From assembly GCF_004135585.1 (NCBI RefSeq), contig NZ_CP035501.1, positions 4,783,501-4,847,500 on the forward strand: DNA of 64,000 nucleotides, given 5' to 3'. Below, in pieces: positions 5,408-64,000 of this stretch. The translations under genes and the position numbers were made by a program. Every line of letters begins with the position of its first letter. Positions within the stretch are counted from its first letter, which is position 1. Source of the DNA: Sphingosinicella sp. BN140058. Lineage in GTDB: Bacteria; Pseudomonadota; Alphaproteobacteria; Sphingomonadales; Sphingomonadaceae. The notes under the pieces were generated by a model. The model saw only the letters and a list, made by a program, of their open reading frames with translations, did not search any database and was not told where the DNA came from.

Positions 5408-6100
5408 CTAACCAGCTTGCGAAGATTGCGGGTGCTTCGTCCGACCGCTCTCACTCTGCGGGACGTCAGTGCTCCTGCGAAGCACGCAGACGCTCGCCGC
5501 CAGGATCCACCAGATGATCAGGCTGCCGGCGAGCGCCGAATTGCCCCAGCCATGGGCAGAGTAGAAGTGGGTGGGATCGGTGCCGAAGAAGAGCGACGGC
5601 AGGAAGCCGAGGTTCACGGCGCCGATCGCCAGCCCGAGCCAGCCGAGCCAGCTTGGGAAGGCTCGGCTTTGCAGGACGGCATGGCTGACGGACACGAGAT
5701 ACAAAGCGGTAAGAAGGCGCTTCACCGAACCGTGGGCCAGCATGTTGGCAGCCGCCAGAGGCCCGTCGATGGTCGGATCGACGGTGCCGGACGGATCGGC
5801 GAAGACCACACCCGCCTCGTTGCAGAGCGCGAACAGGCCGACCGCCACGAACAGCAACCCGGCATTGCGGCTGAGTGACAGCGCGAAGGTGGCCTCCGCC
5901 GTCACCGTGCTGAGCAGATGGTGGAACCCGGCCATGAAGACGATGATCGCGGCGAAGCTGAGCAGCGCGAGGAAGGTGCGGGCGAGCACGTTCCCGGAAG
6001 GCGGTGCCCCCGCATGGGCGAAGTAGAGCGCAATGGTGGCGACAGTGACGATCACCGCGAACAGGCCGGCGACTGCCGTCAGTCCTCGCACTTCCCGCAT
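5408..6100 (-). CDS. DUF4386-like integral membrane protein
   Basis: A 230-residue membrane protein with six or seven hydrophobic segments (for example LFAVIVTVATIALYFAH, FLALLSFAAIIVFMAGF, GLLFVAVGLFAL, LTALYLVSVSHAVL, LGLAIGAVNLGFLPSLF, LAGSLIIWWILAASV). The WLGWLGL-type turn and SVSHAVLQS motif resemble DUF4386 proteins of unknown function. A strong AGGAGG lies before ATG 6100. It is divergent from a TetR-family regulator, with a palindrome between them, so it is the likely regulatory target. Function unknown. Confidence 0.65.
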   Translation of the reverse strand: MREVRGLTAVAGLFAVIVTVATIALYFAHAGAPPSGNVLARTFLALLSFAAIIVFMAGFHHLLSTVTAEATFALSLSRNAGLLFVAVGLFALCNEAGVVFADPSGTVDPTIDGPLAAANMLAHGSVKRLLTALYLVSVSHAVLQSRAFPSWLGWLGLAIGAVNLGFLPSLFFGTDPTHFYSAHGWGNSALAGSLIIWWILAASVCVLRRSTDVPQSESGRTKHPQSSQAG

Positions 6101-7673: not shown

Positions 7674-7704
7674 AATCTACTTGCATGCACATCAGGCGGT
7701 GAGT

Positions 7705-7719
7705 ATTAGCACTCCTAAC
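7705..7719. promoter_or_regulatory. MarR operator candidate, site 2
   Basis: ATTAGCACTCCTAAC contains TTAG-N5-CTAA dyad symmetry and shares 12 of 15 bases with site 1, centre to centre 46 bp away. It lies between the MarR gene and the divergent operon start at 7765, where a repressor could block either promoter. Confidence 0.5.
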
Positions 7720-7764
7720 GATCGTGTCGACGCATGATGCGGTTCGGCAAGCAGGGAGAAGACG

Positions 7765-8511
7765 ATGACTCGATTCTTGAACGCGCGACGCTCGGCGAGG
7801 GCCGGTGCGATCATGAGCCTCGCTCTGGCGGCGGGCGTCTCCGCCCACGACATCAAGGGCACGAAGGGCAATGCGGCGAAGCCCGACTTCGACATCGTGC
7901 ACACCAGCATCACGCGCGCCGGCGACGATCTCGTGTTCAGCATGGCGGTGAGCGGCAAGGCCGGGGCAAGTCGTCCGACCCCATCGGGCAAGCTCGCCGG
8001 TTCCAGCGTCTATTCCTACGTGTGGCCGACCAGCCTGAATTCGGGCGCGATCGGCTTTGAGGAGGATCAGGGCATCCTCGCCTTCGCCGTCACCTCTCAC
8101 CCCGATTTCGACGACACCCCCCTCTACGACGAGAATGGCGACGGGGACAAAGCCAATGACGGTAACCTCTGGCACAGCCACTGGGTGGTGCTGGTGCCGG
8201 ACGAGAGCTGCGGCAAGGGCGCGCTCAAGATCCGGGACATCGAGGAAGGGGCCAAACCGAGGCTGCCGAGCACCTGGCCGGGCCTTCCGATCCTGATCGA
8301 CAGCCCCGCCTACAAACCCGATCTTGCCGGCGCGAGAGTCGTCGTGCGGGTGCCTGCGGCGGCGCTTGGAGACACCAAGGACATTCGATTCGATGGAGTC
8401 ACCGCGGGGCTGCGCATCAACGCTTCGGTTCATGCGCCGCTGGCCTGCGTCGCAGATGTCTTCGACATTGCTAGCGGCGACCTCAGTCTGCCGGGGCGCG
8501 TGATGAAGTAG
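7765..8511 (+). CDS. Secreted protein of unknown function with Ca-loop-like motif
   Basis: A 248-residue protein with an N-terminal signal peptide (Arg-rich start, hydrophobic core ending in VSA near residue 27), so probably periplasmic. The mature part is predicted beta-rich. It has a DENGDGDKANDG segment near residues 122-133 resembling a calcium-binding loop, WHSHWVVLVP just after it, and two cysteines (about 149 and 229) that could form a disulfide. I do not recognise the family. GGGAGAAG precedes ATG 7765. It is first in an operon with a small helical protein and a redoxin, divergent from the Cys-rich MarR gene. Confidence 0.7.
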   Translation: MTRFLNARRSARAGAIMSLALAAGVSAHDIKGTKGNAAKPDFDIVHTSITRAGDDLVFSMAVSGKAGASRPTPSGKLAGSSVYSYVWPTSLNSGAIGFEEDQGILAFAVTSHPDFDDTPLYDENGDGDKANDGNLWHSHWVVLVPDESCGKGALKIRDIEEGAKPRLPSTWPGLPILIDSPAYKPDLAGARVVVRVPAAALGDTKDIRFDGVTAGLRINASVHAPLACVADVFDIASGDLSLPGRVMK

Positions 8512-62426: not shown

Positions 62427-62657
62427 ATGGTGGCACATGTCGCGACGGTCGCGTTTCTCGGGCTGGAGGCGCGTGCCGTCGAAGTCCAGGTGCAGATTTC
62501 GAGCGGGCTGCCCAAATTCCTGATCGTCGGCCTACCGGACAAGGCGGTGGCGGAGAGCCGCGAGCGGGTGCATGCCGCCCTTGCCGCGATCGGGCTCTCG
62601 CTGCCGCCGCGCAGGATCACGGTCAATCTGTCGCCGGCCGATTTGCCCAAGGAAGGC
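62427..62657 (+). pseudogene. comM: comM/yifB 5' fragment, truncated by foreign DNA
   Basis: Codons 1-77 encode the N-terminal Lon-like domain of the YifB/ComM Mg-chelatase-like ATPase: ATVAFLGLEARAVEVQVQIS, FLIVGLPDKAVAESRERVHA and RRITVNLSPADLPKEG. Family members then read SHFDLPIALA, and a P-loop ATPase of more than 400 residues follows. Here the match ends after KEG at 62657 and an unrelated tail reaches a TGA at 62703-62705. ComM is a hexameric helicase for branch migration in natural transformation. GAGGGGG precedes ATG 62427. Confidence 0.8.
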
Positions 62658-64000
62658 GTGCTTTCGACTGATCGCCAGCTACTACGACGCGACGAAACGC
62701 TCTGAATGCTAGCGCTTGTGGGGCGCATAATTCTGGAGTAGCCTACTCTTGAACGGAGAGGTTGAGCGTGGCGACGGTGCTGGAACGTGTATCAGACCGG
62801 CCGCATGTGCTCCTGTCCCAAGGTCCTATCGCTGCCAAGGAGTCGCCCGGCATCCCATTTGAGTCAGTTCGCCTGGCCGGGGAGTTGGTGAACCTGCGGC
62901 CGGTTCGCGCGCGGTATGGAGATCAGTTCTCCGGGAAGTTGCTGGACGAATTCGCGCTGACTTGGAGGGAGGGGCCCGCCACCACAAACGGTAAGAGAGC
63001 ATACGCCCTCCGACGGTGGCTCACAGACTTGAATGAACGTGCCGAGGCTGCTCCATCGGAAGCTGCTATAAGGACAGTACGAGACAAGCTACGTGCCTGT
63101 GCTTTCTCAAGTATCAGCCCTCAGGAGTTCTCCGATGCAGTCGGCGACTTTGTGGACCGAGCTTGCGACACGGGGGACAGATCAATCTGCAGCACAGGCG
63201 AGGTCGCAACGCGGCGCCCCCTGCTTGAGTCGCTTTCTTCCTCGCTGCAGCAGCTTGCGCCAGGGGTGGGGTGGCCCAATGTCGGACCCTTGAAGTTCAA
63301 GCTCGGCCGCATTGAGCGCGGTACGACGCCCTCTTTAGGTGAGTTGTCCCTGCCAGCCGGTCGAACAGACCGGCATAGCGAGAGTGGCGAGGGGGTGTTC
63401 GCTCGGACGGTCGCACGAAACAGAGATCGACTCGATCGTCTCCGCAGCATTTGCGAAGACGAGCTATTGGCATCCTACGAAAGGTTCCGGCGCGGACAGC
63501 GCCTGCTTTCGCGATCGCATGGTCCAACAGCGGCAGAGCTGATGCAGGCGGAGCGCGATATGGCCGACGCCACGGTCCTTGAGGGGCGGCGCTCACCGCT
63601 ACCGGGCCTCGCCGGGCACTGCTTCCCACTGGAAGATAGAGAGTTCTCCCTCGCGTCGCTTTTGCAGCACGTTGTCGTGAACCATGCGGGCAGGATCGGG
63701 GCCAGCAAGAGCTGGGCGACACAAGGAGTGCGTAATCTGGTCACGTGGCTTGGTGGGCCGCAATTTGTCACTGAATTGATAGAAGCCAGTGATCGCGCGT
63801 TGGTCGCAGCATACGGCCTGGTTTCGATCGATTCGGCTTTCAACGTGCAGGCGTGTGACGACCTTGCCGCAGACCCGTTTGTGGGTGTTCCCGATCGCGG
63901 GAGAATCGAGCTCCGGGTACTGCAATCCACCAAGAATAGACCCGTCCCTAGAGCGGTGAGAAGCATCTTTGGCGACGGCTTCGTCTATCTGAGCGCGAAA
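62658..64000 (+). mobile_element. Left part of an insertion into comM (island or transposon)
   Basis: Immediately after the comM fragment the DNA changes: no comM similarity, visibly lower GC (34 of 60 bases in the line from 63781 against 44 of 60 in comM from 62521) and less biased codon use. It contains a long gene starting at 62768. comM is a known insertion site for AbaR-type islands in Acinetobacter. The right end and the comM remainder lie outside the window, so the element type and length are unknown. Confidence 0.6.
62768..64000 (+). CDS. Large mobile-element protein, possibly tyrosine-recombinase-like (5' part)
   Basis: The frame is open for 411 codons from GTG 62768 to the window end. 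GGAGAGG lies six bases before the GTG. The region FALTWREGPATTNGKRAYAL and the helical stretch after it look like an integrase N-terminal core-binding domain. Residues about 355-390 (LVAAYGLVSIDSAFNVQACD, then LQSTKNRPVPR) resemble the start of a tyrosine-recombinase catalytic domain, but without the first catalytic Arg. The later R-H-R-Y residues would lie beyond the window. A recombination role is an inference; the family is not firmly recognised. Confidence 0.6.
   Translation, partial: MATVLERVSDRPHVLLSQGPIAAKESPGIPFESVRLAGELVNLRPVRARYGDQFSGKLLDEFALTWREGPATTNGKRAYALRRWLTDLNERAEAAPSEAAIRTVRDKLRACAFSSISPQEFSDAVGDFVDRACDTGDRSICSTGEVATRRPLLESLSSSLQQLAPGVGWPNVGPLKFKLGRIERGTTPSLGELSLPAGRTDRHSESGEGVFARTVARNRDRLDRLRSICEDELLASYERFRRGQRLLSRSHGPTAAELMQAERDMADATVLEGRRSPLPGLAGHCFPLEDREFSLASLLQHVVVNHAGRIGASKSWATQGVRNLVTWLGGPQFVTELIEASDRALVAAYGLVSIDSAFNVQACDDLAADPFVGVPDRGRIELRVLQSTKNRPVPRAVRSIFGDGFVYLSAK

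Follow-up and report, generated by a model that had tools for sequence, protein, structure and literature searches.

Two unrelated element types are known to strike the DNA-uptake gene comM, and both insert at its Walker B region (parts of PMC10293859 cited here). Tn6022/AbaR elements move by Tn7-type transposition, which is accompanied by target duplication, whereas Tsy elements are composed of YRec, HTH and TnsF. A circular intermediate was demonstrated for Tsy; the zinc fingers of TnsF are located within its first 199 residues, and inverted repeats remained undetected by the Tsy authors in the sections concerned (PMC10293859). The same source suggested that comM breakage may limit the transformation of other mobile elements.

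Several other elements also carry more than one recombinase. GInts are islands reported up to at least 76 kb in size; their genes are in the order ginA-ginB-ginC-ginD from the left end, they are flanked by imperfect direct repeats of 10–17 nt and have one short AT-rich 3′ end, and both excision and integration need all four genes (excerpts of PMC5385486). Gin homologues were reported in Alphaproteobacteria by that paper; in one survey, ginC-ginD pairs were absent from this class (excerpts of PMC10214605). Strand-biased circularizing elements (SEs) have the order intA-tfp-intB-srap and imperfect 19-bp inverted end motifs, C and C′, and their circles form from the top strand only and leave no empty site (PMC9345347, PMC10214605); according to the passages of PMC10214605 used here, the SE authors did not find SE proteins in Alphaproteobacteria. 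Tn554 contains two recombinases and TnpC, and RITs contain three simple recombinases, with no helper listed in the passages concerned (PMC10214605, PMC8138268).

Here we describe one island that splits comM of Sphingosinicella sp. BN140058 (genome G000). The analysed window is the whole stretch of 64,000 nucleotides, C1:4783501-4847500 on contig C1 of this genome; it contains the left end of the island. Three recombinase-type genes and a small helper form an operon at its left end, its ends carry matching inverted repeats, and relatives of the operon share the comM codon in two other genomes. We therefore read the insert, with a probability of about 0.86, as a GInt-type genomic island that integrates at a specific site, and not as an assembly chimera or a Tn7-type transposon. 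Our searches of a partial literature collection turned up no paper recognised as describing islands with several recombinases at codon 77 of comM.

The comM break and the island ends

The comM frame opens at window position 62427, and its match to ComM ends at 62657, the last base of codon 77. This 5′ comM part (62427..62657, forward strand, 77 codons) is cut inside the N-terminal ChlI domain, after ...DLPKEG. A family search of the genome returned the ChlI domain (PF13541) of comM as two separate matches on a single contig of 5.72 Mb; the first covers profile positions 1-58 at C1:4845984-4846157, and the second covers positions 49-119 at C1:4964927-4965136. The comM 3′ part restarts 118.8 kb downstream, reading TCG CAT TAC GAT. 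The inserted island is 118,793 bp in size; it starts at 62658, fills the window to 64000 and runs on to its right limit at G000:C1:4964950. The sequence-only reading of the window had proposed that foreign DNA of lower GC interrupts comM, and had advised looking for the 3′ part of the gene to the right and for inverted terminal repeats or att sites; the interruption, the 3′ part and inverted repeats at both ends were all found. The GC content is 0.628 for the whole insert and 0.569 for the recombinase operon, compared to 0.669 for the flanks (left 62.4 kb; right 10 kb). An intact comM resuming after a frameshift near 62657, which that reading had named as a refutation, was judged unlikely.

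Close relatives, which the same reading had suggested for comparison, carry the unbroken gene. In the same-genus genome G039, comM is intact and represents the empty site; the alignment of the left flank ends at L034:5583 and that of the right flank restarts at 5585. Both flanks are ∼86% identical to the G039 comM region. On the left side, the last 312 bp (86% identity) was all that aligned out of 6.7 kb tried, indicating that the wider left neighbourhood differs from that of G039; on the right side, six aligned pieces span 4.4 kb. The comM ChlI domain is unbroken in 23 of the 25 other genomes of the genus, and the remaining two (82% and 86% complete) gave no comM ChlI match. The search of 38 further family genomes gave a comM match of nearly full length in 35, one of them with an internal TAG; comM is in two adjacent pieces in one genome, and two gave no match. 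The stretch from the comM 3′ part to a further ChlI-family match that we take to be lon (C1:4964927-5116142) is ∼151 kb, versus ∼78 kb in G039, which points to another large difference near comM.

Two other genomes contain comparable islands. In G770, which belongs to the same family and to another genus, comM is cut after the same codon 77 by a 44,092-bp insert; relatives of ORF1–ORF4, the four genes of the left-end operon, are present at 52–55% identity. The 3′ part of this comM lies at the opposite end of the insert. In Arenibaculum pallidiluteum (Rhodospirillales), comM is cut at the same codon, the ORF1–ORF4 relatives are 28–37% identical, and the comM 3′ part lies on a different contig. 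The comM codon-77 islands thus probably involve two orders. Over 40 kb compared, the G770 region matched our island at the DNA level only in the comM 5′ region, so it is the machinery that recurs and not the cargo. An assembly chimera or a frameshifted comM would account for the abrupt stop of similarity and for nothing further. With both comM parts on one contig between matching inverted repeats, and with the same junction codon and related operons in two other genomes, its probability is practically negligible.

The island is bounded by one perfect 12-bp inverted repeat. The left copy, CTTTCGACTGAT, is located at 62661-62672 (forward strand), and its exact reverse complement, ATCAGTCGAAAG, at C1:4964938-4964949. 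Within a 132-kb region, exact CTTTCGACTGAT occurs once per strand, at the island ends only (C1:4846161, C1:4964938). In G770, the repeat is imperfect. Some 80 bp in from the left end, one short inverted repeat, AGTAG-C-CTACT (62737..62747, forward strand), was read by eye; the G770 island has the identical 11 bases at about the same distance from its own left end, again read by eye, and this repeat was not seen in the Arenibaculum left end. The G770 island also contains tandem 9-bp units (GGCCTGNAT) about 200–300 bp inside its left end, preceding ORF1. The sequence-only reading had also advised looking for a target-site duplication; no 5-bp duplication was found at the island ends.

The attL site is GAAGGCGTGCTTT, the attR site is GAAAGATCGCATT, and the uninterrupted comM of one family member (L013) reads GAAGGCTCGCATT. 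Aligned without gaps, all three share the pattern GAARG-NNN-GCWTT, the middle of which varies; attL and attR agree at 8 of 13 positions as counted by eye. Both G770 sites fit the pattern, and the fit of the Arenibaculum left site is incomplete. Judged from their sequences, such sites are what strand exchange between non-identical cores by a tyrosine recombinase could leave.

The right ends of the three comM islands are predicted to fold strongly. For 150-bp stretches at or just inside these ends (C1:4964784-4964933, L069:1722-1871 and L068:1690-1839), the folding z-scores are −6.7, −4.3 and −3.3, compared to −1.6, −2.4 and −0.4 for 150-bp control stretches further inside and −2.1 for our own left end. 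The hairpin may serve as a terminator or as a site for a protein. The GC content of the last ∼300 bp is 0.62 in our island, 0.55 in G770 and 0.62 in Arenibaculum.

At the right junctions (C1:4964950, L069 and L068), the comM 3′ part is fused in frame to one element-borne stretch with an ATG; the open in-frame stretch upstream is 109, 14 and 76 codons in length in the three islands. A shortened ComM could be made from this ATG, or the arrangement may be due to chance, given that there are three cases and that an ATG is no rarity in such frames. The break most likely inactivates ComM itself, as residues 1–77 are split from the ATPase part. A ComEC gene is present in the genome; that natural transformation may be lost through the comM break, as raised by the sequence-only reading, is plausible.

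The left-end operon and its relatives

The left end of the island is one four-gene operon, in which each gene overlaps the end of the preceding one. ORF1 starts with GTG at 62768 (forward strand), continues through 64000, the end of the window, and ends at C1:4848469; it encodes 733 residues. ORF2 (C1:4848463-4850778) and ORF4 (C1:4851245-4852480) encode 771 and 411 residues, respectively, and all three proteins are of tyrosine-recombinase type. ORF3 (C1:4850775-4851248) encodes 157 residues; it is coiled-coil-like by eye and is called a small helper by its size and place alone. The crude gene caller applied to the insert gave 120 frames; it recovered the three recombinase genes and missed ORF3.

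Arg535, His559 and Tyr569 of ORF1 are kept in 19/19 sequences; the first motif Arg is missing, being replaced mostly by Asn among these 19 sequences and by Asn in our own copy. ORF2 has the residues R, HxxR, H and Y in 27/27 aligned rows of the tree set. The motifs of ORF4 are G-L-R, H-x-x-R, H and Y. Its profile matches one solved XerC-like recombinase at 2.8e-6, the next match being one unrelated ribosome-factor chain at 3.5e-4; its NCBIfam matches are all below the cutoff. ORF1 and ORF2 gave no recombinase match against Pfam, NCBIfam and PDB profiles (nothing below E 0.3 for PDB), and their class is therefore assigned from motifs and profile matches. The structure prediction of ORF1 was poor (pLDDT 40.7) and unusable for structure search.

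The operon was compared with one operon of the Novosphingobium plasmid pCAR3, which encodes one recombinase, one integrase, one large hypothetical protein and one small hypothetical protein, followed by arsenic genes. We take the pCAR3 operon as GInt-type, judging from its composition, and it stands in for GInts in the gene comparison. Since the description of the GinC catalytic residues fits gene 2 better than gene 3, the pCAR3 genes are named by position, 1–4. The hhalign probabilities are 99.5 for ORF4 and gene 1, 99.4 for ORF1 and gene 2, and 99.8 for ORF2 and gene 3. With earlier, smaller alignments, the ORF2–gene 3 match already reached 98.9, and the ORF1–gene 2 match was weak (probability 20), rising once distant relatives entered the alignment; the crossed pairs gave 0.3 and 0.4. 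ORF3 showed no similarity to gene 4, the pCAR3 helper (probability 0.1). In pCAR3 numbering, the gene order of our island is 2-3-helper-1.

The contig search of genomes with the ORF2 protein alone found no relative; with the first ORF2 alignment it gave 19 loci, and viral contigs gave one distant locus. In the protein database, with 8000 candidates scored in each search, at least six matches were obtained for ORF2, at least five for ORF1 and at least eight for ORF4, the last two counts including our own copy. Counting our own genome, which contributed one copy in each of these searches, relatives were found in 2 of 385 genomes of the class (ORF2 query), 2 of 396 of the order (ORF1 alignment), 5 of 397 of the family and 7 of 398 of the phylum (ORF2 alignment for both). 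The relatives described here are those outside loci L058-L060 and L088-L093 of the genome searches.

ORF1, ORF2 and ORF4 relatives follow the order of our island, on one strand, in 18 of the 23 other loci tabulated; this count may be biased by the collection of loci via ORF2, and the 18 loci are partly non-independent, as L044/L045 and L038/L041 carry a nearly identical element. Within the 18 loci, L046, L053 and L061 gave no ORF3 match, and ORF4 lies 2–5 kb further on in L047, L061 and L083. The exceptions are L037, with ORF4 inverted; L054, with the order 3-4-1-2; L085 and L065, with ORF4 first as in pCAR3; and L084, with no ORF1 or ORF3 match. L039, L040, L043 and L055 were kept out of the table, the first three showing the order 1-2-4. 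In the Rhodovastum plasmid (L083:4921-16352), four annotated genes (primase-like, hypothetical, AAA ATPase and hypothetical) lie between ORF1–ORF3 and the recombinase gene of ORF4 type.

Arenibaculum branches in the ORF2 tree with one relative from Mesorhizobium whose target is a different gene (support 89/91), apart from the other two comM islands. The loss or gain of comM targeting may therefore have happened more than once.

Tyrosine recombinases, the comM 5′ part just upstream of their operon and the cargo behind it would all be expected of one Tsy-type transposon, for which a circular intermediate has been demonstrated (PMC10293859, in part). This identification is nevertheless very unlikely. 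Our site is codon 77 and not the Walker B target; the operon has three recombinase-type genes in place of YRec plus TnsF; ORF1, ORF2 and ORF4 have no close Cys pair up to residue 200, compared by description with the N-terminal zinc fingers of TnsF; and the ends carry perfect 12-bp inverted repeats, of which none were detected for Tsy in the passages of PMC10293859 used here.

Target genes, apparent movement and cargo

Different from the three comM islands, other relatives adjoin or break other genes (read for loci other than L046, L047, L051, L054, L055, L064, L084 and L086). The Roseicella relative (L037) breaks one isopropylmalate/tartrate-dehydrogenase-like frame, named by eye from its motifs, after TSATKSNGI. 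The Mesorhizobium (L038; ...ADAAIQGLGRTHRTNQ) and Sphingopyxis (L041) relatives adjoin one frame that is SNF2 or strawberry-notch helicase-like by eye, and the Rhodovastum relative (L083) adjoins one gene annotated as SNF2-related. In L048, L049, L050, L052 and L053, the match of the thymidylate synthase frame upstream of ORF1 stops at Pfam position 178/266 in all five cases, and one complete thymidylate synthase gene is located between the cut thyA and ORF1, again in 5/5, as though standing in for the truncated gene. By eye, the thyA arrangement looks alike in L044, L045 and L061.

Signs of recent movement were found in the helicase-associated pair. L038:7826-14107, from Mesorhizobium (now Neoaquamicrobium) sediminum, and L041:7826-14107, from Sphingopyxis sp. 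LC363, belong to different orders and are 99.98% identical over 6,282 bp from the left end. Outside the island, the flanks are ∼74% identical after exclusion of the repeated left end; one 390-bp flank alignment at 82.6% takes in ∼131 bp of that repeated end of L041. This difference between island and flank indicates recent inter-order movement and one clean left boundary. The M. sediminum genome contains further copies (L039, L040 and L043), which are ∼90% alike, flanks included. In L041 (about 7691-7956), the island left end opens with a tandem duplication of its initial ∼131 bp, either the trace of one second insertion or an assembly artefact.

The cargo was surveyed by Pfam scanning of 38 of ∼117 proteins. 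Efflux functions include one RND pump with its membrane-fusion protein, response regulator and kinase, and further MFS, HlyD and OEP genes. There are also alpha/beta hydrolases, NAD(P)-binding, GST and CMD proteins, cytochrome b, one 1167-residue PAS kinase and one GGDEF-EAL protein; the regulators comprise receiver-GerE, Rrf2 and GntR proteins. SRAP peptidase, ATP-dependent DNA ligase domain, subtilase, phosphoesterases, part of one chemotaxis receptor and one Xre/MbcA/ParS antitoxin domain were also present, together with transposases of three kinds, which we name IS3-, IS110- and IS256-type. The accessory genes that the sequence-only reading had considered possible are present; of the defence genes it had offered as the other possibility, PADLOC gave one match among 10 cargo proteins, one phosphoesterase fitting the candidate model PDC-S10. 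In the G770 island, among eight proteins scanned, the cargo includes one type IIG restriction-modification gene, one GmrSD-like gene and one weak ZorA/ZorB-like pair, the restriction genes and possible motor-type defence pair being located at L063:4284-10063 and L076:5978-10375.

Compared with plasmid DNA, three cargo blocks matched scattered genes, mostly 60–80% identical. DNA matching block L009 is present in 25 of the 26 genus genomes, our own included; outside our own genome it consists of scattered genes only, the nearest parallel being at G046:C4. The island could also be one nested composite, in which one smaller comM island received later insertions and most of the 118.8 kb is foreign to the original cargo. 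The three kinds of transposase, the GC content climbing to 0.66 mid-island and the size of the island, beyond that of the reported GInts (up to at least 76 kb; excerpts of PMC5385486), are in line with such a history; the single exact pair of the end repeat in the region and the lack of any recognised second integrase or relaxase in the 38 of ∼117 cargo frames scanned speak against it, and we consider it rather unlikely.

The sequence-only reading had likened the insert to AbaR-type islands. One AbaR/Tn6022-like Tn7-type transposon would share the target gene, and efflux-pump genes are indeed among the cargo; the equivalence is not supported, however, and this origin is extremely unlikely. No tnsA/B/C-type gene was recognised by Pfam among the 38 of ∼117 cargo proteins scanned, the 5-bp duplication is lacking at the ends, and the recombinase operon lies at the island boundary in three genomes. 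In addition, Tn6022 strikes Walker B (PMC10293859, in part), whereas our insertion is at codon 77; in the same-genus ComM, a Walker B-like motif falls at residue 296.

Returning to the GInt-type reading, we tentatively propose that permuted multi-recombinase islands might be one third, separate machinery acting at one second conserved comM site. Such islands might home on codons of highly conserved housekeeping genes (comM, thyA, SNF2-type helicase and dehydrogenase), bring one replacement copy if the target is indispensable (thyA), and leave the target broken where blocking transformation may help the island (comM). Multi-recombinase islands at another comM codon in three genomes would render the idea that comM breakage limits transformation testable, as a case of repeated and convergent targeting. 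One family that keeps its recombinase operon and switches its target also offers a natural series for studying how one tyrosine-recombinase complex chooses short sites, and the thyA members with their second synthase gene suggest how one element can afford an essential target.

Proposed integration and comparison with known systems

In the proposed mechanism, the ORF1–ORF4 proteins would act jointly on one circular form, the joined ends of which would carry the inverted repeats. The site recognised by the four proteins would be the conserved comM segment that encodes DLPKEGSHYDLP, and strand exchange in the core of GAARG-NNN-GCWTT would generate hybrid attL and attR without duplication. Efflux pumps, two-component systems, oxidoreductases, IS elements and further cargo would travel on the stretch from the operon to the right end, and the island would be able to exit by the reverse reaction.

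The known systems, as described in the parts of the papers cited above, resemble our island to different degrees. Like Tn6022/AbaR, it splits comM; different from it, Tn6022/AbaR uses Tn7-type machinery, generates one duplication and targets Walker B. Tn554 and RITs share with it the presence of several tyrosine recombinases acting together. Tsy is also one tyrosine-recombinase element in comM with cargo; it differs in its Walker B target, its YRec/HTH/TnsF gene set and its lack of detected inverted repeats. SEs are similar in having four core genes, among them one large recombinase and one recombinase-fold protein without catalytic residues, and in their inverted end motifs and target specificity. 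However, the end repeat of our island is 12 bp and perfect, whereas the SE motifs, compared by description, are 19 bp and imperfect.

GInts have the one-end operon with three tyrosine-recombinase-type genes and one small helper, the cargo behind it, the hybrid att sites and the high target specificity of our island. Compared to the reported GInts, our island is larger, at 118.8 kb, and its right end is GC-rich with one strong hairpin instead of AT-rich; comM is not named as a target in the main-text passages of PMC5385486. The gene order, judged via the pCAR3 operon, also differs from ginA-ginB-ginC-ginD. What is unusual in this island is its 2-3-helper-1 order relative to the pCAR3 operon and the hit in comM at KEG|SHYDLP, as opposed to Walker B for Tn6022 and Tsy.
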